A stretch of DNA of 64,000 nucleotides from Flavobacterium sp. CBA20B-1 (GTDB lineage: Bacteria; Bacteroidota; Bacteroidia; Flavobacteriales; Flavobacteriaceae): NCBI RefSeq assembly GCF_028473145.1, contig NZ_CP092370.1:682001-746000 (forward strand). The letters are read 5' to 3'. Shown in pieces: positions 52,968 to 62,870 of the stretch. Each line of letters starts with the position of its first letter. Within the stretch, counting starts at the first letter, position 1. The notes beneath the pieces were generated by a model, which did not search any database, was not told the DNA's origin, and saw nothing but the letters and a program-made list of their open reading frames with translations. Made by a program: the position numbers and the translations under genes.

Positions 52968-54116
52968 ATGCAACTATCCGTCGTAATCTTAAATTATAAT
53001 GTAAAGCATTTTTTAGAGGTTTGTATAAAAAGTGTTCAAAAAGCTGTTGAGCATATCAAGGCTGAAATTATTGTTGTGGATAATACTTCAACCGATGGAT
53101 CAAAAGAAATGATACAGCAATTATTTCCGGATGTTAATTATTTCTATCAGACTGAAAATTTAGGTTTTCCTAAGGGAAATAATATCGGCGTGGAGGCTGC
53201 AAAAGGTGAATTTATTTGTATTTTAAACCCTGATACAATCGTAGCAGAAGACACATTTGAAATTTTATTAAAAACTTATCAAACACTTGAAAATCCTGGG
53301 GTTTTGGGCTGTAAATTAATTGATGGCTCTGGTAAATTTCTTCCTGAAAGCAAACGCGGTGTTCCTACTCCTTGGGTTGCTTTCACAAAAGTAGCATCAT
53401 TATATAAAATCTTTCCCAAATCGAAATGGTTTAATACATACTACGCACAGCATATATCTGAAAACCAAATAGGAAAAGTTGCTATTTTGGTAGGCGCTTT
53501 TATGTTTATGAAACGTGACTTGTATATGGAAGTAGGCGGGTTTGATGAAGGATGTTTTATGTATGCAGACGATATCGACTTAAGCTACATGGTTTCAAAA
53601 ACTGGTTTGCAGAATTATTACGTTCCAAAAACTACTGTAATTCATTTTAAAGGAGAAAGCACACTTAAAGATGGAAAGTATATGCTGCGTTTTAAAGAAG
53701 CCATGCAGTTTTTCTATAAAAAGCATTTTAAAAAATCACCTTGGTTCAATGCGGTCATGGATATGGGGATAGCATTGTTTGCCTTAAAAAAGCAATCTGA
53801 AAAAAGTAGTGACCAACATTCTATAAATCATTATATATTGGTAACTAATAATGCTGCGCTTTATCAAAAAGTTGTAAATAAAATCGATAAGCCTTTAGAT
53901 TGGGTATATTTTTTAGAAGATATTCAAACAATAAATCAGCCTGAGAAAAACATTGAAATTTTAATTGATAACGAATCTATTTCCTATAAAGACTACATAG
54001 CCTTTATCAATCAAAACCAAAAAACAAACAAAACGTTTAAAATTCGTTCTATAAACTCTGATTTTTTTATCGGAAGCAATGATAAAAATGGAAGGGGAGA
54101 AATTTTATCTTTCTAG
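52968..54116 (+). CDS. Family 2 glycosyltransferase
   Basis: A 382-residue GT-A glycosyltransferase. SVVILNYNVKHFLEVC at the start, VVDNTSTDGS near residue 36, ENLGFPKGNNIG and CILNPDT (the DxD-like site) near 87, and a later GGFDEGCFMYADDIDLSYM acceptor loop resemble rhamnosyl- and N-acetylglucosaminyltransferases. The acceptor is unknown. The last 110 residues are variable. It begins 6 bases after hutG, an unrelated gene. Confidence 0.9.
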   Translation: MQLSVVILNYNVKHFLEVCIKSVQKAVEHIKAEIIVVDNTSTDGSKEMIQQLFPDVNYFYQTENLGFPKGNNIGVEAAKGEFICILNPDTIVAEDTFEILLKTYQTLENPGVLGCKLIDGSGKFLPESKRGVPTPWVAFTKVASLYKIFPKSKWFNTYYAQHISENQIGKVAILVGAFMFMKRDLYMEVGGFDEGCFMYADDIDLSYMVSKTGLQNYYVPKTTVIHFKGESTLKDGKYMLRFKEAMQFFYKKHFKKSPWFNAVMDMGIALFALKKQSEKSSDQHSINHYILVTNNAALYQKVVNKIDKPLDWVYFLEDIQTINQPEKNIEILIDNESISYKDYIAFINQNQKTNKTFKIRSINSDFFIGSNDKNGRGEILSF

Positions 54117-54161
54117 AAATTAAAAATTTTAAATAAACAGCAAAATACTCTTAAAAATTAC

Positions 54162-54169
54162 TACTTTTG
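54162..54169 (+). promoter_or_regulatory. -7 box of the E2 gene
   Basis: TACTTTTG, 37 bases before ATG 54207, a longer leader than most genes here. Confidence 0.55.
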
Positions 54170-54206
54170 TACTACTTTAATCTATACACAACTTTTTATT
54201 AGAAAT

Positions 54207-55511
54207 ATGGCAAAGTTTGAATTAAAATTACCTAAAATGGGTGAAAGTGTTGCAGAGGCAACCATTACAAATTGGGTAAAAAACGTTGGTGATACAGTAG
54301 AACAAGATGAAACAATTGTTGAAGTAGCAACCGACAAAGTTGATAGCGAAGTGCCGACAGAAGTAAGCGGAAAAATCGTGGAAATTTTGTTTCAGAAAGA
54401 TGATGTAGTGCAAGTGGGACAAACAATTGCAATCATTGAAACAGAGGGTGCCGATGTTGCACCAGCTAATAATGCACCTGCAAACGAGGAAGTTTCAGTA
54501 GAAAAAGTTGAAAAAACAGTTGCAGTGGCACAAGAAACAGTTGCAGTTGCAGATTTCGGTTCTTCAGATAAATTTTTCTCACCTTTAGTAAAAAATATTG
54601 CAAAAGAAGAAGGTGTTTCTATTGCCGAACTCGAAGCAATCAACGGCACTGGAAAAGACGGAAGAATTACCAAAACAGATATATTAGATTACGTTAAAAA
54701 CAGAGGTTCACAATCGGTAGCAGCTCCTGTTCAACAAACTGCGCCTTCTGTTCAACCAACACAATCAGTTGCAAGCAAAGCAGCACCAGTTTCTGTAAAC
54801 GGACAAGACGAAATTGTAGAAATGGATCGTATGCGCAAAATGATTGCACATCACATGGTGCAATCGGTTCAAACTTCTGCGCACGTGCAATCGTTTATCG
54901 AAGTGGACGTTACAAATATCGTGAATTGGCGAAATAAAAATAAAAATGCTTTTGAGAAGAGAGAAGGAGAGAAGCTTACATTTACACCTATTTTTATGGA
55001 AGCTGTTGCAAAAGCATTAAAAGATTTCCCTATGATGAATATTTCGGTTGATGGTGATTACATCATTAAACGCAAAAACATCAATTTGGGAATGGCAGCA
55101 GCTTTGCCCAACGGAAATTTAATTGTTCCGGTAATTAAAAATGCCGATCAGTTGAATTTGGTAGGAATGGCAAAAGCAGTTAACGATTTAGCAAATCGCG
55201 CAAGAAATGGAAAATTAAAACCAGATGACACACAAGGCGGTACATACACTGTTACCAACGTTGGAACGTTTGGTTCTGTTTTTGGAACACCAATTATCAA
55301 TCAACCGCAAGTAGGAATTTTGGCATTAGGAGCTATTAGAAAAGTAGCTGCGGTTATCGAAACTCCAGAAGGTGATTTTATAGGTATTCGTCAAAAAATG
55401 TTCTTGTCACATTCTTATGACCACCGAGTGGTTGATGGTTCTTTAGGCGGACAATTTGTTCAAAGAGTGGCACAATATTTAGAATCTTTTGATCCGAACA
55501 GAGCTATTTAA
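54207..55511 (+). CDS. 2-oxoacid dehydrogenase E2, dihydrolipoyl acyltransferase
   Basis: A 434-residue acyltransferase. One lipoyl domain (residues 1-78; lipoyl Lys44 in EVATDKVDSEVP), an Ala/Pro/Thr/Val linker, a subunit-binding domain (about 118-155, SPLVKNIAKEEGVSIAELEAINGTGKDGRITK), then the catalytic domain with SYDHRVVDGSLGG near residue 403 (catalytic His and Asp). The single lipoyl domain and the TDKVDSEVP wording suggest a branched-chain keto acid or general E2 rather than pyruvate E2. It ends at a bidirectional terminator. Confidence 0.9.
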   Translation: MAKFELKLPKMGESVAEATITNWVKNVGDTVEQDETIVEVATDKVDSEVPTEVSGKIVEILFQKDDVVQVGQTIAIIETEGADVAPANNAPANEEVSVEKVEKTVAVAQETVAVADFGSSDKFFSPLVKNIAKEEGVSIAELEAINGTGKDGRITKTDILDYVKNRGSQSVAAPVQQTAPSVQPTQSVASKAAPVSVNGQDEIVEMDRMRKMIAHHMVQSVQTSAHVQSFIEVDVTNIVNWRNKNKNAFEKREGEKLTFTPIFMEAVAKALKDFPMMNISVDGDYIIKRKNINLGMAAALPNGNLIVPVIKNADQLNLVGMAKAVNDLANRARNGKLKPDDTQGGTYTVTNVGTFGSVFGTPIINQPQVGILALGAIRKVAAVIETPEGDFIGIRQKMFLSHSYDHRVVDGSLGGQFVQRVAQYLESFDPNRAI

Positions 55512-55518
55512 ATATACA

Positions 55519-55550
55519 AAATCCCGAAGGTTGTTATCTTCGGGATTTTT
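55519..55550. terminator. Bidirectional terminator between the E2 and WYL genes
   Basis: A perfect 12-base stem AAAATCCCGAAG / CTTCGGGATTTT with an 8-base loop. T runs serve both directions. Confidence 0.92.
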
Positions 55551-55551
55551 T

Positions 55552-56574
55552 TTACATTTCCTCTATCTGATACATTGTAGCTGTTCTGTTTATGCGGTTT
55601 TTGATTTGTTTTCTCAGGTTTTTGGGGGCTAAAACCATTACATTTTCTCCAAAACCTAAGATTTCACGTTCTAGTTCAAAATTAGGAATCACATCTATTC
55701 GTATAACAATTCCATTTTCATTTTCTTGTAGAATTTGTTGCGAATGATGAATGGGTTTGGTTTTTACATAGGGCGCATTTTTCACATTAAATTTTAAAAT
55801 AATTTTTTGCGGTCGATCTTTTTCCGAACGTGTTACACCAATACATTCGCTATAATATCTTTCAAAATCAATACCTTCGTAAGGTTTAAAAGCAGAAGCT
55901 TCCAATTCATAAAAAGCCTCTATACGGTCTAAAGCCAAAGTAACCAAAAGTTTTCCTTTATTGCTTCGAGTGATTAAAAACCAACGGTTGCGGTATTCTT
56001 TCAGCAAATACGGATGATAAATTTCTTTTATAGCTTGTTTTGATTTAAACGATTTATACTCAATATAAAGTGGTTTTTTATTCAAAATAGCTTTGTATAA
56101 CCGGCTTAGATGAGCAATTCCTTTTAACTGTTTATTATCTTCAAACTGAATATAATTTGGAGTTTTCTTGGAAGATTTATAGATGTTGTTTTCCAATTTA
56201 GCAATAAGTTCGCTCATTTCATCGAAATATTGAAAACCATTAAATTGCTTTAGAAGTGATACAACTTCCTTCATTTTATGCACATCTTCCTCTTTTATCG
56301 GCGACTTTGTAATTGAATATTCCGGATCTTCATAACAATAAAATTTGCGATTGGTAACCACAATTGGTGCGTTGTATCCCAATTTATCGCTGCGCATAAA
56401 CTGTATATCGGCCTGAATAGTGCGTTTGCTAATACCGGTTGTAATACCTTCAAATTCATACAATGCATCGGATACCTTTTCCATTAAATCTTCCAGCGTC
56501 CATTTTCTGAAGCGATTTTGCAAACATTCATTGATTGTTTTATAGCGAATTAACGCAGATTTGTTAGTAGCCAT
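55552..56574 (-). CDS. WYL-domain transcriptional regulator, divergent to the RNA-repair operon
   Basis: A 340-residue regulator. An N-terminal winged helix-turn-helix (residues 1-80, RYKTINECLQNRFRKWTLEDLMEK ... GISKRTIQADIQFM) is followed by a WYL domain (about 165-230, LYIEYKSF ... IYHPYLLKEYRNRWFLITRS) and a WCX-type C-terminus. WYL domains are thought to sense nucleic acids or nucleotides and often control RNA-repair, CRISPR or phage-defence genes. Start: ATG 56572-56574; the frame reaches a TTG at 56578. It faces the RlaP-RlaP-RtcB operon across 228 bases containing two operator-like dyads. Confidence 0.88.
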   Translation of the reverse strand: MATNKSALIRYKTINECLQNRFRKWTLEDLMEKVSDALYEFEGITTGISKRTIQADIQFMRSDKLGYNAPIVVTNRKFYCYEDPEYSITKSPIKEEDVHKMKEVVSLLKQFNGFQYFDEMSELIAKLENNIYKSSKKTPNYIQFEDNKQLKGIAHLSRLYKAILNKKPLYIEYKSFKSKQAIKEIYHPYLLKEYRNRWFLITRSNKGKLLVTLALDRIEAFYELEASAFKPYEGIDFERYYSECIGVTRSEKDRPQKIILKFNVKNAPYVKTKPIHHSQQILQENENGIVIRIDVIPNFELEREILGFGENVMVLAPKNLRKQIKNRINRTATMYQIEEM

Positions 56575-56598
56575 GACCAATTAGTATTAAAAATCAAG

Positions 56599-56606
56599 TA
56601 AATATA
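56599..56606 (-). promoter_or_regulatory. -7-like box of the WYL gene
   Basis: The minus strand reads TATATTTA, one base off the consensus, 24 bases before ATG 56574. Confidence 0.45.
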
Positions 56607-56611
56607 GCATT

Positions 56612-56636
56612 AATTACGCAATATATCTGCGTAGTT
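56612..56636. promoter_or_regulatory. Operator-like dyad 1 (WYL promoter side)
   Basis: AATTACGCA, 7 bases, then TGCGTAGTT: a 9-base dyad with one mismatch, starting 5 bases upstream of the WYL -7 box. Confidence 0.6.
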
Positions 56637-56724
56637 AAATACAAATTTATAAATAAAATCTTTTTAAATGGTTTTATTTATTTGATAATTAGTTTTTTAT
56701 AAATAAATTAAATTTTTTTTCATT

Positions 56725-56745
56725 TGCGCATTTTGATTGCGTAGT
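56725..56745. promoter_or_regulatory. Operator-like dyad 2 (RNA-repair promoter side)
   Basis: TGCGCA, 7 bases, then TGCGTA followed by GT. Same right arm TGCGTAGT and same 7-base spacer as dyad 1, located between the -33 TTG and the -7 box of the operon. Confidence 0.6.
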
Positions 56746-56761
56746 AACAGTTGCATCTTTG
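56733..56761 (+). promoter_or_regulatory. Promoter of the RlaP-RlaP-RtcB operon
   Basis: TTG at 56733-56735, an 18-base spacer and CATCTTTG at 56754-56761 (first base off the TAnnTTTG consensus), 41 bases before ATG 56803. Confidence 0.5.
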
Positions 56762-56802
56762 TGATGTTGAAATAATATATTAGATTATTAAAAACATTAA
56801 TC

Positions 56803-57597
56803 ATGAAAAAAATAATTGTTGAAAAGCTAAATACAATAGAACAAGAAAAAGGAATAAAAATACTTTTTGCAATAGAATCTGGTAGCAGAGGTTGGGGATT
56901 TTCTTCTGCTGATAGTGATTATGATGTTCGATTTGTTTATGTACGACCTAAAAAGGACTATTTACATATTAATGAGCAAAGTGATTTTTTAGATTTTCCC
57001 ATAAATAATGAACTTGATATAAATGGTTGGGATGTTAGAAAATTTTTGAAGCTGTTGTATGCTTCAAATGCTACACCATTTGAATGGATGCAATCACCAA
57101 TCGTTTACCAAAAAGATGAATCTATCTTTAAAATGATTGTGAAGGTACTACCAAATTATTTTTGCCAACAAACTTTAGTGCAACATTATTTAGGTTTGGT
57201 TCATAAAAAAATAGAAATGCTTCGAACAGAAAATATGCGACTAAAAGATTTTTTTTATATCTATAGATCCTTATTAGCAGCGAGATTTGCATTAAAAAAC
57301 AATCAATTTCCGCCTATGGAATTTTCAAAATTGATGATTCAAATAGATATGCAATCACTACTTAATGAAACAAAACAATTGGTATGTTTAAAGAAAAGTA
57401 TGAGTGAAAAATACATAGACACAATCAATCTAGAATTAATTGATTACCTTGAAAATACTCATAACGAACTCTCAGAATCGAAAAAAATTAAACGCAAAGG
57501 AACGTTAGATTTAGAAATATTAAATGAAACATTTTATAAAATAGTAACAGATGCTGACAATAGATATTTTAAAGAAAAACAACCTAATACTTTTTGA
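56803..57597 (+). CDS. RlaP-type nucleotidyltransferase, first copy
   Basis: A 264-residue protein of the DNA polymerase beta superfamily. The catalytic pattern is IESGSRGWGFSSADSDYDVRFV: Gly-Ser at 27-28 and the metal pair Asp39/Asp41. The family (YcgL/COG3541, RlaP) recurs next to RtcB and is proposed to nucleotidylate or otherwise process RNA ends before ligation. The end overlaps the second copy by 47 bases in another frame, so the two are translationally coupled. Identity rests on motif and context. Confidence 0.85.
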   Translation: MKKIIVEKLNTIEQEKGIKILFAIESGSRGWGFSSADSDYDVRFVYVRPKKDYLHINEQSDFLDFPINNELDINGWDVRKFLKLLYASNATPFEWMQSPIVYQKDESIFKMIVKVLPNYFCQQTLVQHYLGLVHKKIEMLRTENMRLKDFFYIYRSLLAARFALKNNQFPPMEFSKLMIQIDMQSLLNETKQLVCLKKSMSEKYIDTINLELIDYLENTHNELSESKKIKRKGTLDLEILNETFYKIVTDADNRYFKEKQPNTF

Positions 57598-58609
57598 ATG
57601 TATTTCAGGAAGTAAAGCTTACGGTTTACATACTGAAAAATCTGATACGGATATTCGCGGAGTTTTCTATATGCCCAAAAAAGATTTTTACGGACTTAAT
57701 TATGTTCCGCAGGTGAGTAACGAAACCAACGACATTGTTTACTATGAATTGGGAAGATTTATTGAGCTTCTTTCTAAAAACAATCCTAATATTTTAGAAA
57801 TGCTTGCAACACCAGCGCATTGCGTTATATATAAAATTGAACTGATGAATGAAATAAAAATCGCTGATTTTCTTTCACTGCTAACGAAAGATACTTTTGT
57901 TGGGTATGCTTTATCACAAATAAAAAAAGCGAGAGGTCTTAATAAAAAAATGTTTCATCCTATGAACGCCCAACGAAAAACAGCTTTAGCATTCTGTTAC
58001 GTTGTAGAAAATGGAAAAACACATGAGTTGCAAAAATGGTTAATTGCTAAAAAATTGAAGCAAGAAAATTGTGGTTTAGCAAAAATCAATCATTTAAAAG
58101 ATACTTATAACCTTTTCTATAATATAAATGAGGATGTTTATAGCGGAATATGTGTTGGGAAAGATTCAAACGAAGTTACACTAAGTAGGATTCCAAAAAC
58201 TGCAACATCATCTATTTTACTGTATTTTAATAAAGATGCTTATTCCACCTATTGTAAAAAATATAGCGAATATTGGGAATGGGTTTCTAAAAGAAATATC
58301 GATAGATTTCAAACAAATAAATTGCATGGGAAAGGGTATGATACTAAAAACATGATGCATACCATTCGATTGTTGCAAGTAGCTTTAAACATTTTTAAGA
58401 ATAATAAATTAACAATTGAAGTTGAAAATCGAGAAGAATTATTAGCTATAAAATCGGGTGTTTTGAGTTATGAAGAAGTAATAAAAATGGCAGACGATTT
58501 AATAGTTGATATAGAAAAATTTTATAAAAAATCGATACTAATGAAACAACCCGATTTAAATAAAATAGAAAATTTATTGATTGAACTTCGTCTAAAACTA
58601 TACAATTAA
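57551..58609 (+). CDS. RlaP-type nucleotidyltransferase, second copy
   Basis: A 352-residue protein of the same fold as the copy upstream but strongly diverged. ISGSKAYGLHTEKSDTDIRGVFYMP gives Gly-Ser at 20-21 and Asp32/Asp34. The helical C-terminal part is longer than in the first copy. Having two different RlaP copies together suggests a division of labour, perhaps on different RNA ends. The rtcB start codon lies 2 bases after its stop. Confidence 0.85.
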   Translation: MLTIDILKKNNLILFECISGSKAYGLHTEKSDTDIRGVFYMPKKDFYGLNYVPQVSNETNDIVYYELGRFIELLSKNNPNILEMLATPAHCVIYKIELMNEIKIADFLSLLTKDTFVGYALSQIKKARGLNKKMFHPMNAQRKTALAFCYVVENGKTHELQKWLIAKKLKQENCGLAKINHLKDTYNLFYNINEDVYSGICVGKDSNEVTLSRIPKTATSSILLYFNKDAYSTYCKKYSEYWEWVSKRNIDRFQTNKLHGKGYDTKNMMHTIRLLQVALNIFKNNKLTIEVENREELLAIKSGVLSYEEVIKMADDLIVDIEKFYKKSILMKQPDLNKIENLLIELRLKLYN

Positions 58610-58611
58610 TC

Positions 58612-60033
58612 ATGAAAAAAATAACAGGAAAAGACCTATTGCGTATAGGTTTTGAAGAAAATATCATTTTAGGAAAAACATTACAATTTTTCGAGAATTA
58701 TCAGGGTGCATTAAACAAAGGCGAGGTATTAAATATTTTAAAAAAACTTATTGAGACCCCACATGAAACCTTTGAAGCATCTGAATTTTACCCATTGGCA
58801 CAGCAGATTATTGCATTGCAAAACGAGATAGATAGTGCTACTATTCCACTAGCGACTGAACCAAAAGAATATACCGTTTTTGGAAACGAACATATCGAGG
58901 ATGGTGCAAAAAAACAAATGGAAGTTGCGATGAAACTGCCTGTTTCGGTAGCCGGAGCTTTAATGCCCGATGCACATCAAGGCTATGGATTGCCAATTGG
59001 CGGTGTTTTGGCTACCCGAAATGCCATTATTCCGTATGGAGTTGGTGTGGATATTGGGTGCAGAATGGCACTTTCAATTTACGATATGGAAGCATCTTTT
59101 TTTGAAGAAAACCAATCGAAATTTAAACGCGAATTAATCGCACAATCAAATTTTGGTGCGGGAAATGGTTTTAAAGGACAGTACCGATTGGATCACGAAG
59201 TTTTAGAAAATCAATTGTTCCACGAAAATCCATTTTTAAAAAGTTTAAAAGATAAAGCTTGGGCACAATTAGGAAGCTCTGGTGGAGGAAATCATTTTGT
59301 GGAATTTGGTATCATTGAATTTTCAGAGCGCGACGAAATGCTAAATATTGAAAAAGGCCAATATGTTGCCCTATTAACCCATTCCGGTTCACGAGGTTTT
59401 GGTGCTACTATTGCCAGTCATTACACCCAATTGGCAAAGAAAGTTTGCAAATTGCCACGCGAAGCTAAAAACCTGGCTTATTTTGATTTGAATTCAACCG
59501 AAGGTCAAGAATATTGGCTGGCAATGAATTTGGCTGGCGATTACGCTTCGGCTTGCCATGAAGTGATTCACTTAAAAATGCAAAAAGCTTTAGGAGTTCA
59601 AGTTTTAGCTAAAGTTGAAAATCATCACAATTTTGCGTGGAAAGAGCAGTGGAACGGCGAAGAAGTGATTGTTCATCGAAAAGGAGCCACACCTGCCAGC
59701 AAGGATGTAATGGGTATAATTCCGGGATCAATGACAGCACCTGGTTTTTTAGTTCGTGGAAAAGGTGCACCAGAAGCCATTCAGTCTGCATCGCACGGTG
59801 CCGGACGTCAAATGAGCCGAACCCAAGCGAAAAAAGAAATTACTAAAACCGATTTCAAAGCCATTTTAAAAGACCATAACGTTACTTTAATTGGTGCGGG
59901 TTTAGATGAAGCGCCAATGGCTTATAAAGATATTCATCAGGTGATGCAAGCACAAGAACATTTAATTGATGTTGTGGCAACTTTTACGCCCAAAATGGTG
60001 CGTATGGCAGACGATGGAAGTAGGGAAGATTAG
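58612..60033 (+). CDS. rtcB: RtcB RNA ligase (3'-phosphate/5'-OH)
   Basis: GTP-dependent ligase joining 2',3'-cyclic or 3'-phosphate to 5'-OH RNA ends. A 473-residue protein: MPDAHQGYGLPIGG, the metal Cys150 in GVDIGCRM, GSSGGGNHFVEFG, LLTHSGSRGFGA, VENHHNFAW, and the guanylylated His in SASHGAGRQMSRTQA near residue 393. All metal and nucleotide residues I can place are present, so it should be active. An N-terminal helical extension of about 70 residues precedes the core. No archease gene is beside it. Confidence 0.94.
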   Translation: MKKITGKDLLRIGFEENIILGKTLQFFENYQGALNKGEVLNILKKLIETPHETFEASEFYPLAQQIIALQNEIDSATIPLATEPKEYTVFGNEHIEDGAKKQMEVAMKLPVSVAGALMPDAHQGYGLPIGGVLATRNAIIPYGVGVDIGCRMALSIYDMEASFFEENQSKFKRELIAQSNFGAGNGFKGQYRLDHEVLENQLFHENPFLKSLKDKAWAQLGSSGGGNHFVEFGIIEFSERDEMLNIEKGQYVALLTHSGSRGFGATIASHYTQLAKKVCKLPREAKNLAYFDLNSTEGQEYWLAMNLAGDYASACHEVIHLKMQKALGVQVLAKVENHHNFAWKEQWNGEEVIVHRKGATPASKDVMGIIPGSMTAPGFLVRGKGAPEAIQSASHGAGRQMSRTQAKKEITKTDFKAILKDHNVTLIGAGLDEAPMAYKDIHQVMQAQEHLIDVVATFTPKMVRMADDGSRED

Positions 60034-60042
60034 TTTTAATTA

Positions 60043-60077
60043 AATAAACCGCAATTAAATTTGCGGTTTATTTTTTT
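60043..60077. terminator. Bidirectional terminator between rtcB and the endonuclease I gene
   Basis: AATAAACCGCAA with TTGCGGTTTATT (60043-60054 and 60061-60072), then a T run. Confidence 0.88.
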
Positions 60078-61129
60078 ATAAACTTAAACGTTTTTGACTG
60101 ATTTTCTATTGAAATATTTAAAAAATAAATACCGTTTGCATAATGCGAAACATTAATTTTGTTTTTATTTTTTCCTTGTTCGATCAACTTGTTTGATACA
60201 TCAAAAATTTTATAGCTATAGTTTTCTGAGTTGTTCTCAATATTTACAATGTCTGAAGTATATGTAGGATACACCTTTACCATATTCAAATTTTCATTCG
60301 CCACGGTTAAACTGTTCCATTTGTTTTCAGCAGCAGGCCCATTCCAAATTAGGGTTGCTAGATAAGGATTGTCAATAAATGGGTTTCGGTTTCCTTGAGC
60401 ATTATAAATAGTTTCATTTCTGTTTATTTCATGTGCAGAAACCGGATCTTCTGCATTCCATTGTAAAAAAATGTTTGGCATATCACCATTCATCGAAAAT
60501 GAAGTTGCGCCATGACCAACATTTATAGGTTGGCAGCGATTGCCATAGCGCACATACATGTACATGATCATTCGAGCAATATCGCCTTTCCATTGGTTTC
60601 CAGGATAAAAATATTCGATACCGTTTTGCTGAATCACACGGGAATAGGTGATATATGAAGTGGGATTTGCAATAAACTTAAAATTACTTCTTAAACTATT
60701 ACGATCATAATCAGCAGCACGCAGGTGGTGTGCATCAGCACCTGGACCTTCAAATTCTAGATTGGGCGTACCTTTTGATCGAGGAAAAACATGTTCGCGC
60801 ACCCATTTATTCTCGCAATTTGCACTATGACAACTTGCATTTCTGTCGCGCGTTAAATCATTATTTTTTATTAAATCAGTATCGTTCCAACCATAAATTA
60901 GTAAAATTTTATTGCTATTTGTAGGATCCACATCTGCATCTTTTAAAACATCCCAAACTTGGGGCGAATAAATTAAATCCGTTGTGTGAGTGTTAGTAAT
61001 TAAAGTTGCAAGTTCGCTTTTTAAAGCATCACCCTTCAAAGATAAATTAATTGATTGATAATATGTAGGAATCTGTGCATTGGAGACACAAAATATAAAG
61101 AAAAAAAGGGTATGAAAGACTGATTTCAT
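60068..61129 (-). CDS. Secreted endonuclease I with type IX-like C-terminal domain
   Basis: A 353-residue extracellular nuclease. A signal peptide (MKSVFHTLFFFIFCVSNAQ) precedes the endonuclease I domain. Likely active-site motifs are WVREHVFPRSKG (His) near residue 110, DAHHLRAADYDRNSLRSN near 130 and a late YVRYGNRC. The last 75 residues (VYPTYTSDIVNIE ... YANGIYFLNISIENQSKTFKFIKK) have the type IX secretion sorting look. Start: ATG 61127-61129; the longer frame would begin in the -7 box. It likely degrades external DNA for nutrients. Confidence 0.88.
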   Translation of the reverse strand: MKSVFHTLFFFIFCVSNAQIPTYYQSINLSLKGDALKSELATLITNTHTTDLIYSPQVWDVLKDADVDPTNSNKILLIYGWNDTDLIKNNDLTRDRNASCHSANCENKWVREHVFPRSKGTPNLEFEGPGADAHHLRAADYDRNSLRSNFKFIANPTSYITYSRVIQQNGIEYFYPGNQWKGDIARMIMYMYVRYGNRCQPINVGHGATSFSMNGDMPNIFLQWNAEDPVSAHEINRNETIYNAQGNRNPFIDNPYLATLIWNGPAAENKWNSLTVANENLNMVKVYPTYTSDIVNIENNSENYSYKIFDVSNKLIEQGKNKNKINVSHYANGIYFLNISIENQSKTFKFIKK

Positions 61130-61147
61130 TGCTTGTAAATAACAATG

Positions 61148-61155
61148 CAAAATTA
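61148..61155 (-). promoter_or_regulatory. -7 box of the endonuclease I gene
   Basis: The minus strand reads TAATTTTG, 18 bases before ATG 61129. Confidence 0.6.
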
Positions 61156-61217
61156 ATGAAATATCTTTGAATAAAATGTTTTTATAGAAACAATTCCATT
61201 CTTCGTACTACTTTTTA

Positions 61218-61225
61218 TATTTTTG
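61218..61225 (+). promoter_or_regulatory. -7 box of the class D-like gene
   Basis: TATTTTTG, 15 bases before ATG 61241; it contains the TTG at 61223 that would otherwise look like a start. Confidence 0.6.
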
Positions 61226-61240
61226 AAAAAAATTCAACGA

Positions 61241-62023
61241 ATGAGATCAATTACAGCAGTTTTTATTTTTTTTATGTTTTTTAATGCAAAAGCTCAAAGC
61301 TATTTAGATTATTATTTTAAGGCCAATAATATAAATGGTGCAATTGTGATTTATGACGCAAACAAAGATGAATGGCTTTTTAACACAGAAAGTGAACCTT
61401 TTTACAATACACCGGCGGGCGCACATTTTCATTTGTGGCAAGCTTTGGTAGGATTAGAAGAAAAGATTTTTAAAATTGATGTAAATGAAAAACTAAAATG
61501 GGACGGTGTAAAAAGATCTTCATTTGAAGGAAGAATGCCCGAGTGGAATGCCGATACTAATTTGATTGATGCTTTAAAAAATCAAAATGATTGGTATTTT
61601 AATGTGTTAAAAGATAAATTATCAGCTGAAAGTTATGAGAAAAATATTAAAAATGCTTCATTTCTGAAAGAAGTTAAAAATAATGAATGGGAGTATTTTT
61701 GGAACTATGCAGCTTTTACAAATCCAAATTCTATGATTTTATTTCTAAAAGATTTGCACGATAATAAATTACCTTTTCATAAAAAAAGCCAGCAATTTTT
61801 ATTCAATCAACTTCTGGCAAATCAACAGTTAGCCCTTCATACCACCACAACGAGTTATTTAGGAAAAAAAATAGATTGGACAGTGGGTATTTATCTTAAA
61901 CAAAGCAAACCGATTTATTTTTCGCTTAGAACTTATACTTCATTAGAAAGTGATGCTTTAGCAGACTACGATAAGCGCAAGAATTTAATTTTAGCTCAAA
62001 TATTTGAAGTTTTAGGATACTAA
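61241..62023 (+). CDS. Inactive class D beta-lactamase-like protein
   Basis: A 260-residue exported protein (signal peptide 1-19, ending NAKAQ). From residue 33 it follows class D (OXA) beta-lactamases: AIVIYDANKDEWLFN, LKWDGVKR at 85-92, WNADTNLIDALKN, FLKDLHDNKLPFHKKSQQ and a late beta strand WTVGIYLK. But the catalytic STFK motif is replaced by AHFH (61-64, no Ser or Lys), the SxV site by QND (115-117), and KTG by LGK near 208. It cannot be a serine beta-lactamase. It may bind a cell-wall ligand or be a sensor; the call is by recalled family alignment. Confidence 0.75.
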   Translation: MRSITAVFIFFMFFNAKAQSYLDYYFKANNINGAIVIYDANKDEWLFNTESEPFYNTPAGAHFHLWQALVGLEEKIFKIDVNEKLKWDGVKRSSFEGRMPEWNADTNLIDALKNQNDWYFNVLKDKLSAESYEKNIKNASFLKEVKNNEWEYFWNYAAFTNPNSMILFLKDLHDNKLPFHKKSQQFLFNQLLANQQLALHTTTTSYLGKKIDWTVGIYLKQSKPIYFSLRTYTSLESDALADYDKRKNLILAQIFEVLGY

Positions 62024-62119
62024 AATGAAGCCTTCTCAATACTAAAATTTTCGGCGGTTTTTTATTTGATTAAACTTTTATAAAAAAGTTACTTTTTTAA
62101 AATGAGGTTAAAATTGTCT

Positions 62120-62870
62120 TTAAGCAGCAATTTTCTTTCTTAAGTTGTGTGCTAAAGTCATTAACCCAAATTCTAATCCTGTTTTTTGGTTTCCTTTTAA
62201 AGAAAATCATCTAAATTTATGGTTGTATTTAAGTTGAGCGAATACATGTTCTACATCAGCGGTCCGTTTTTTTCTTTTCTGCAATCCAGTCTCGCTTGTT
62301 AGTAGTTCTCTGATTTTTTGGTTCCATCTGGCACACATAATAATCATCTTATTGGTTGTAATGAAGATTTTCTTTACTAAAAGGTTTGTGCTTTTTTTGA
62401 TAATTTTTGTCTTGCACTTTGTCAAAAGTATTTTGTGTTTCTATTTTTTGTGGCATCGGTATAAATTTGTTTTAATGAAATGAATCCTTCAGAAGCATAC
62501 ATTAGTACTACTTGTTTGAAAATCTCTTTAAAACTATCTTTTAATTTATTGCTTCAAAATCTATTAATAGTGTTATGATCAACTATTGTCTTCAGGTTAA
62601 CCACATAAAATTGATGTTCTCTCTAACAGCTAATTCTATCTTTCGAGAGGAATAGGTGTTAGTCATATAAGAATACAACATTACTTTAAGCAACATTTTT
62701 GGATTATAAACTGGATTACCCTCTTAACTGTATGCTTTTAAAAATGGCTGAATATTTATTGACTCAACAATTTGGTCAACTACTCGAACGGGATGTTTCT
62801 CTGAAATAAAATCGTCAACCGAATAAGGTAAAAGTGTGGTTTGACGTTGATTGTAATGCTTGAATTTCAT
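62120..62870 (-). pseudogene. Decayed IS1182-family transposase
   Basis: Reading the minus strand from ATG 62868: MKFKHYNQRQTTLLPYSVDD, then VVDQIVESI, an in-frame TAA after FLKAYS, then EGNPVYNPKMLLKVMLYSYM and ELAVRENINFMW. These match the N-terminal half of IS1182-type transposases. Further stops and frame changes follow. A piece RTADVEHVFAQLKYNHKFR and a last piece GLEFGLMTLAHNLRKKIAA (stop at 62120) match the C-terminal end. Intact copies are about 1.5 kb, so the catalytic middle is deleted. Confidence 0.85.

Follow-up and report, generated by a model that had tools for sequence, protein, structure and literature searches.

In a 64,000-nucleotide stretch of Flavobacterium sp. CBA20B-1 (contig NZ_CP092370.1, positions 682,001 to 746,000), referred to here as the window, a gene for a WYL/WCX transcription regulator faces the genes for two RlaP-family nucleotidyltransferases, RlaP1 and RlaP2, and for the RNA ligase RtcB. 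We consider it probable that this cassette is a self-contained, inducible RNA-repair operon, and that it represents one module set within a wider family of islands built on a WYL gene and its operator. The WYL gene faces two copies of a palindrome placed 110 bp apart, one near its own start and one before RlaP1-RlaP2-RtcB. The RlaP pair alternates with a slipin gene at this locus and, in a related architecture of the genus called type H below, brackets interchangeable genes that mostly belong to anti-phage families. All functions assigned to the cassette are predictions made from sequence.

A broader idea can be put forward tentatively, namely that the WYL-operator RNA-repair islands of Flavobacterium are a docking platform. 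The RlaP1-RlaP2 pair would frame a slot for exchanged effectors, one damage sensor would switch on both the repair enzymes and the docked effector, and RNA repair would act as a safeguard shared by many defences. In that case, the window would hold the cargo-free version.

The Cassette in the Window

The features of the cassette are as follows (E-values and bit scores are from profile searches).

55552..56574, minus strand: WYL/WCX transcription regulator; PF25583 (WCX), 1.7e-12, 47.9 bits; PF13280 (WYL), 1.3e-10, 41.6 bits
56615..56633: candidate operator 1, TACGCA-N7-TGCGTA, 35 nt from the start of the WYL open reading frame (ORF)
56725..56743: candidate operator 2, TGCGCA-N7-TGCGTA, roughly 60 nt ahead of RlaP1
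56754..56761, plus strand: CATCTTTG, candidate Bacteroidota -7 element, a block invariant in 6/6 aligned loci
56781..58599, plus strand: segment with RlaP1-RlaP2, with a slipin counterpart in the sister genome G022 (locus L184); flanks about 96% identical
56803..57597, plus strand: RlaP1 nucleotidyltransferase, GS..DxD site and C-terminal helical domain; PF10127, 5.7e-68
57551..58609, plus strand: RlaP2, of a second, phage-like RlaP subfamily with a longer C-terminal part; PF10127, 6.1e-21; phrog_388, 2.9e-49
58612..60033, plus strand: RtcB RNA ligase; PF01139, 1.8e-84

Both domains of the regulator lie above the cut-off in the Pfam profile search, and its N terminus probably forms a winged helix-turn-helix. 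The longest ORF starts at 56580 (55552-56580, minus strand), and the alignment with relatives makes the ATG at 56574 the likelier start. A gap of 222 bp separates the regulator gene from RlaP1; the RlaP1 and RlaP2 genes overlap by 47 nt, and RtcB follows 2 nt after RlaP2. RlaP1 and RlaP2 are two subfamilies and not recent copies of each other. PF10127, with a cut-off of 23 bits, matches RlaP1 over its full length (229.7 bits) and RlaP2 in its catalytic part only (residues 12-127, 75.7 bits), while residues 11-349 of RlaP2 match the phage family phrog_388 nearly full-length. Relatives of RlaP2 were present in 250 of 50,697 phage records; a scan of viral contigs with RlaP1 gave one weak locus.

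The residues G27, S28, D39, D41, and D72 of RlaP1 are invariant in 46/46 aligned sequences, with position 77 holding D in 37 of them and E in the other 9, and G20, S21, D32, D34, D61, and E66 of RlaP2 are invariant in 45/45; the choice of the third acidic ligand among them is putative. In RtcB, C150, H228, H257, and H395, which we take to be the metal and guanylation positions, align with those of the Pyrococcus horikoshii enzyme (PH1602). RtcB is present as a single copy in this genome, which is 99.94% complete, and genome-wide there were no matches to archease (PF01951), RtcA (PF01137), or the PNKP phosphatase domain (PF25109). An initial annotation, made from the letters of the window, had described a WYL regulator opposite an RlaP-RlaP-RtcB operon, intact GS..DxD sites in both RlaPs, a full set of RtcB metal residues, genes that overlap or lie 2 bases apart, and no archease. 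Each of these observations holds, the first with ORFs and Pfam domains confirmed and the last for the whole genome.

PADLOC found no defence effector in the cassette: RlaP1, RlaP2, and RtcB had no match at all, and the regulator matched two WYL models and a Cas3c model, the latter over residues 130-342, that is, the WYL/WCX part. The AlphaFold2 model of RlaP1 has a predicted local distance difference test (pLDDT) score of 94.8, and its nearest solved folds are ANT/KNTase and HalB, its two halves resembling MNT and HEPN domains. The RlaP2 model has a mean pLDDT of 79.8 and a poor catalytic half (residues 13-20, 29-38, and 41-57 below 50), and a fold search from that poor model gave no match at E<=0.001. 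Sequence searches of the PDB with RlaP1, RlaP2, WYL, and one PrrC-like insert of a related locus gave no match; Rfam gave only matches under the gathering scores over window positions 54000-62500, and ARAGORN called no tRNA within the 64-kb window. Directly downstream of RtcB and convergent with it lies a gene for an Endonuclease I with a Por secretion tail (60068-61150, minus strand), which is kept in the sister locus.

A Palindrome That Accompanies WYL Genes

The two copies between WYL and RlaP1 fit the form TRCGCA-N7-TGCGYA. With at most one mismatch allowed, the window contains 2 matches, compared with a mean of 0.08 in shuffled sequences (1 of 100 shuffles reached 2). Across the genome, the exact form TACGCA-N7-TGCGTA occurs once, as operator 1, and the general form has no copies besides operators 1 and 2. 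Three further places match with one mismatch, but these break the R/Y rule. The pattern depends sharply on its spacer: with 7 nt there are 81 sites in 57 loci of the genus (44 loci being positive), and every other spacer from 1 to 15 gives 0-2. When the window is included, the sites number 83, and they lie mostly tens of bases upstream of the starts of WYL, HD-like, Hen1, ligase, RtcB, TROVE, and RlaP1 genes. Ten of them have no called start within 400 nt, and no site was assigned to a gene lying inside the RlaP1-RlaP2 interval.

The palindrome was found in 48/53 genomes with RlaP, and the same pattern read backward, used as a control, in 11/53. In loci from named genomes, it is present in 11/11 with a WYL call vs. 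4/69 without. The RlaP-less islands that we examined are of the order WYL-slipin-RtcB or WYL-TROVE-RtcB (L184-L187) or, in eight cases, of type H. The palindrome marks WYL islands within the genus, as well as the WYL-bearing named loci of other Bacteroidota, and its strong link to WYL loci makes it a candidate WYL operator. Among 19 scanned loci resembling that of the window, 11 have two strict sites, spaced 100 or 109-112 bp apart, and eight have one. Because these two spacings differ by about one helical turn, DNA looping between the sites would fit. A short distance downstream of operator 2, CATCTTTG may serve as a promoter element, the Bacteroidota -7 consensus being TAnnTTTG.

A Slipin Gene at the Same Locus

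The sister genome G022 shares the chromosomal place of the cassette, with DNA identities of 96.5% over window positions 53501-56780 and 95.9% over 58600-61500; in its locus (L184), 334/340 residues of WYL and 464/473 residues of RtcB are identical to those of the window. Between these points, the window has RlaP1-RlaP2 and G022 has slipin; the operators and the ligase are constant, and the middle segment differs. No RlaP remnant was detected in the slipin segment of G022, an observation that does not decide between a swap and differential loss. Since L171 and L174 hold slipin together with both RlaPs, the two states may have arisen by differential loss from a slipin-RlaP1-RlaP2-RtcB ancestor rather than by a swap. 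About 470 nt before the slipin gene of L184 (4167-5261, minus strand) contain, by eye, T-arm-like and tRNA-like stretches, in which ARAGORN calls no tRNA.

Two Architectures of the RlaP Pair

PF10127 was found in 60/397 genomes of the genus and in 30/392 of a phylum sample. In 22 of these 30, there are precisely two matches, whose scores mark one as RlaP1-like and the other as RlaP2-like; the remaining eight have one. We analysed the neighbourhoods in 57 genus genomes including that of the window, two of them from the phylum sample (G263 and G390); five genus genomes with fragments or weak matches only (G456, G614, G683, G685, and G698) were left out. These genomes gave 58 loci, of which 52 carry both RlaPs on one stretch and form the basis of the counts below, the other six having no second RlaP in the stretch.

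Nine of the 52 loci, including the window, are of type W, in which WYL faces RlaP1-RlaP2-RtcB, preceded by slipin, TROVE, or nothing. The remaining 43 are of type H: in many of them, a WYL gene and an HD-like gene stand opposite a repair module, frequently with TatD, and RlaP1-(insert)-RlaP2 comes next. The repair module consists of RtcB, of a Pnkp ligase with Hen1 and a kinase, or of PNK/Rnl-type genes; a few type-H loci have no WYL in the stretch. Gene order was the initial criterion for type W. Independently of that criterion, a branch supported at 100/100 separates the nine type-W members from the rest in the RlaP1 tree, for which the tool warned of long branches at L160, L163, and L173. 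Loci of Pedobacter, Faecalibacter, and Myroides share the type-W order and additionally contain slipin, TROVE, or further genes; the order pointed out in the initial annotation is found outside this strain as well. A gene of about 200 aa recurs beside WYL in type H (L016:13844-14455 and its kin); it is HD-phosphohydrolase-like by eye and has no Pfam match.

For the named genomes, we counted within the best 80 loci of the scan, 76 of which have an RlaP1 call. Both RlaPs are present in 46 of the 76, always on the same strand (46/46), and their order is reversed in six of the 46 (L087, L091, L096, L114, L116, and L130, from Lachnospiraceae and a Eubacterium metagenome-assembled genome). That the pair persists even in reversed order speaks for joint action of the two enzymes.

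Genes of Anti-Phage Families between RlaP1 and RlaP2

More than 500 bp separate RlaP1 from RlaP2 in 34/43 type-H loci vs. 0/9 type-W loci (p = 1.3e-5), the zero in type W being partly built in by the use of gene order to define that type. In 26 of the 34, the first inserted gene begins 1-16 nt past the RlaP1 stop, and 77 of the 90 inserted ORFs of at least 85 aa lie on the RlaP strand (in L025, where RlaP1 is broken, its second piece was excluded from the insert counts). Four long intervals (L026, L134, L147, and L158; 10-14 kb) hold many ordinary genes; they were counted as inserts, and only their main genes were tested. The inserts of 25/34 loci match anti-phage families, 14 directly and 11 through a cluster mate:

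Hachiman HamA/HamB: L015 and L151, direct
HamB-like pair: L016 direct; L138 by cluster
Olokun: L027 direct; L139 and L148 by cluster
Gabija: L175, direct
Avs4: L159, direct
PDC-M62: L158, direct
AAA_13/PDC-S06, PrrC-like: L132 direct; L140 and L144 by cluster
SIR2 + NB-ARC: L135, direct
SIR2 + TPR, on the opposite strand: L142, direct
DRT3: L153, direct
Ppl-like: L025 direct; L133 by cluster
OLD-like ATPase: L022 and L024 direct; L143, L147, L149, L150, and L154 by cluster
Pfam match only, outside the 25: nSTAND3 in L134; Cap4 nuclease in L155

No defence-family match at that level was found for the inserts of L026, L141, L145, and L146, nor for those of L152, L156, and L157, which were themselves not scanned; some inserts, for example in L134, L145, and L155, match no PADLOC model at all. 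The OLD-like matches (seven loci) are to broad ATPase models with a best E of about 1e-18, and when they are excluded, 18/34 loci still match. At E<=1e-10, PADLOC models matched 22 of the 30 tested insert proteins, compared with at most eight of 94 flanking proteins (p = 1.3e-11). The 30 are the main, mostly larger inserted genes (28 of the 90 ORFs and two from L176), and the controls are flanking genes coding for 200-1300 aa, not counting any recognised repair gene. In L176, IetAS follows RlaP1, and RlaP2 is, by eye, a remnant.

The RlaP pair and its cargo change at different rates. The DNA identities of RlaP1 and RlaP2 run in parallel among type-H pairs (r = 0.92, from the 555 of 903 pairs with sufficiently long alignments), and in 2/33 cases the nearest RlaP relative has an insert of the same family, these two being L015 and L151, whose Hachiman genes differ in size. 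In L016, L132, and L135, both RlaPs are 90-95% identical at the DNA level, and the three inserts are unrelated. By these comparisons, the pair changes slowly and as a unit, and the inserts fast.

Several other observations concern the genes of these islands. A family of 478-480 aa proteins inserted between RlaP1 and RlaP2 (L145:9092-10528 and L152:9005-10447), the L145 member of which has no Pfam or PADLOC match, is a candidate new defence gene. A pair of genes of 144 aa and about 1690 aa recurs downstream of RlaP2 (L022, L025, L027, L135, L155, and L177) and within the L147 interval. The supposed cargo of three Hymenobacter loci (L070, L071, and L073) was rejected as a defence gene; by eye, it resembles a TonB-type receptor on the opposite strand.

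RNA-Repair Partners and a Predicted Mechanism

An RNA ligase or kinase module is present in 31 of the 34 insert-bearing loci: RtcB in 16, Pnkp/Hen1 in 10, and PNK/Rnl-type genes in five, with none found in three. Even closely related RlaP pairs can differ in this respect. Pairs at 86-91% DNA identity adjoin RtcB in L140 and L146 and Pnkp/Hen1 in L152 and L154; of the three loci with unrelated inserts mentioned above, L016 has RtcB, and L132 and L135 have a PNK-type kinase with no ligase seen in the stretch.

RtcB joins 3'-phosphate or 2',3'-cyclic phosphate ends to 5'-OH ends. A Pol-beta-type transferase requires a 3'-OH and leaves one. In our view, the RlaP pair probably acts independently of the ligase, most likely restoring the 3'-OH ends of damaged RNAs. 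The following sequence of events may be envisaged. The WYL protein would bind both palindromes, perhaps looping the DNA, and act as a repressor. RNA fragments or ends produced by a toxin or a phage-triggered ribonuclease would bind the WYL/WCX part and release the repressor. RtcB would then seal its kind of broken ends, and RlaP1 and RlaP2, as one functional unit that could accompany any ligase, would restore nucleotides at the 3'-OH of damaged RNAs, most likely tRNAs. In type H, the inserted effectors are probably co-transcribed with the repair enzymes, and a cell that fires a costly defence would thereby also make the means of RNA repair.

Arrays of three to nine tRNA genes lie inside or beside some RNA-repair islands, and most other scanned loci have none:

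L132:13415-14090
L023:2278-2747
L190:2835-3681
L173:11535-12116
L178:12127-12909
L151:4102-4499
L066:4869-6204

A palindrome in L132 begins 13 nt past its array, and the nine tRNA genes of L066 precede RlaP1. Spare tRNAs under the control of damage would be a notable idea.

Weighing the Interpretation

A number of observations weigh against an inducible repair operon with a link to defence. None of the nine type-W loci, the window copy among them, has a defence insert, so that the window is tied to defence through related copies of the module. Beyond the genus, the slot is rarely filled: of the 15 further genomes of the phylum sample that have both RlaPs, three carry inserts (an unknown gene of 210 aa, an ATP-grasp R2K gene, and Ppl-like pieces at contig ends, only the last being defence-like), and the inserts of named Hymenobacter and Neisseria genomes do not resemble defence genes. 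In three of the eight RlaP-less type-H islands examined, Hachiman or Ppl-like genes follow TatD (L188, L194, and L196), which means that the RlaPs are not required for the slot. In the best 80 named loci, 30 of the 76 with RlaP1 have no RlaP2 in the stretch. The palindrome is absent from 5/53 genomes with RlaP and present in 21/49 genus genomes without it (control 2/49), so that WYL islands also exist without RlaP. The 3'-OH of a Pol-beta-type transferase does not match the 3'-phosphate or cyclic phosphate that RtcB needs, and neither RtcA nor a PNKP phosphatase domain was found in the genome. Among solved structures, RlaP1 comes closest in fold to antibiotic adenylyltransferases and HalB rather than to enzymes of RNA repair, and our literature search found no RlaP biochemistry.

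The initial annotation had suggested that the two RlaPs prepare two different RNA ends, which the RtcB of the same operon then ligates. The WYL-linked repair cassette with two distinct, intact RlaPs and RtcB stands, and it gains from the conserved candidate operator and from the association of RlaP pairs with anti-phage genes in relatives; the two-ends scheme is weakened to the point where we consider it unlikely. It draws on the divergence of the two subfamilies, both with intact sites, on the position of both RlaPs directly before RtcB in type W, and on the published prediction that RlaP restores lost nucleotides prior to ligation (PMC7824862). Set against it are the varied partners of the insert-bearing loci, the related pairs that adjoin either RtcB or Pnkp/Hen1, and a 3'-OH product unsuited to RtcB by established chemistry. 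Somewhat less improbable, though still doubtful, is a pair that serves in defence signalling or protein modification, making oligonucleotides like HalB or AMPylating like MNT, with RtcB as a separate safeguard. The likeness of the RlaP1 model to ANT/KNTase, HalB, MNT, and HEPN would suit such a role: Hailong HalB, MNT-HEPN, and ANT/KNTase share with it a predicted nucleotidyltransferase fold and C-terminal helical bundle. The likeness is one of fold only, with about 8-15% identity in the aligned parts and different partners.

An explanation that we regard as quite possible, and that is compatible with a repair function, is that the inserts reflect mere clustering in defence islands, a recombination hotspot with conserved arms and no working link between repair and defence. 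The fast turnover of cargo between conserved arms, with unrelated inserts in L016, L132, and L135, whose arms are 90-95% identical in DNA, is what such a hotspot would produce, and defence genes also occur in RlaP-less islands and inserts are rare outside the genus. The common strand of most inserted ORFs and the tight spacing of the first gene after RlaP1 speak against it, as does the lack of any palindrome assigned to inserted genes when WYL, HD-type, Hen1, ligase, and RtcB genes are preceded by one, none of which is proof of function. It is very improbable that the cassette is an ordinary housekeeping operon for RNA maintenance with no link to conflict. Its chromosomal site next to metabolic genes and its possession of the only RtcB found in the genome would suit such a role; the patchy distribution of RlaP in genus and phylum, the alternation of modules at the locus, and the defence inserts of type H do not. 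The inducible repair operon within a family of WYL islands remains the reading that we prefer.

Implications and Comparison with Known Systems

Should the docking idea hold, a built-in RNA-repair companion and a single inducer would be common to many unrelated anti-phage systems. This would help to explain how cells survive after firing damaging defences, and whatever gene occupies the RlaP1-RlaP2 slot in this genus would be a promising candidate for a new defence. RlaP function also becomes testable, given a pair that changes as a unit beside ligases of differing chemistry. What is new about the cassette is the palindrome, the alternative at the locus, and especially the defence slot of its relatives in the genus; among the papers listed in our searches, no title or abstract opening mentions defence inserts between RlaP genes or this palindrome, which is weak evidence of novelty.

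In 2016, Burroughs and Aravind reportedly described how ligases, nucleotidyltransferases, TROVE proteins, and SPFH proteins are shuffled as modules, together with tRNA-like RNAs. Like RlaP-RtcB and related RNA-repair operons, the islands described here combine an RNA ligase with RlaP, shuffle modules, and optionally carry TROVE or slipin/SPFH; what appears to set them apart is a pair of two RlaP subfamilies that change together, a WYL gene whose candidate operator is present twice, and anti-phage inserts between the RlaP genes of the kin. The RtcR-RtcAB system of Escherichia coli likewise has an RtcB operon facing its regulator, but here the regulator is WYL/WCX and not a CARF sigma-54 activator, no RtcA was found in the genome, and there are two RlaPs. 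In 10 of the 34 insert-bearing loci, the bacterial Pnkp-Hen1 cassette stands next to the RlaP pair in place of RtcB; it is not in the window and, by established chemistry, acts on other RNA ends.

BrxR and CapW are WYL-type regulators of defence; unlike them, the WYL gene of the window faces RNA-repair genes and is accompanied by the TRCGCA-N7-TGCGYA palindrome. WYL is a predicted sensor of nucleotides or nucleic-acid fragments, linked to defence genes (CARF/WYL survey, PMC4012209), RtcR-like regulators accompany the predicted RNA-targeting defence of CoCoNuTs (PMC11090510), and RlaP is named alongside RtcB or a nucleotidyltransferase (PMC6514570, PMC7824862). The RNA-repair sets of jumbo phages include RlaP together with RNA ligases and tRNAs (PMC7824862); unlike these sets, the islands of Flavobacterium are chromosomal and WYL-linked, and their kin carry defence inserts.

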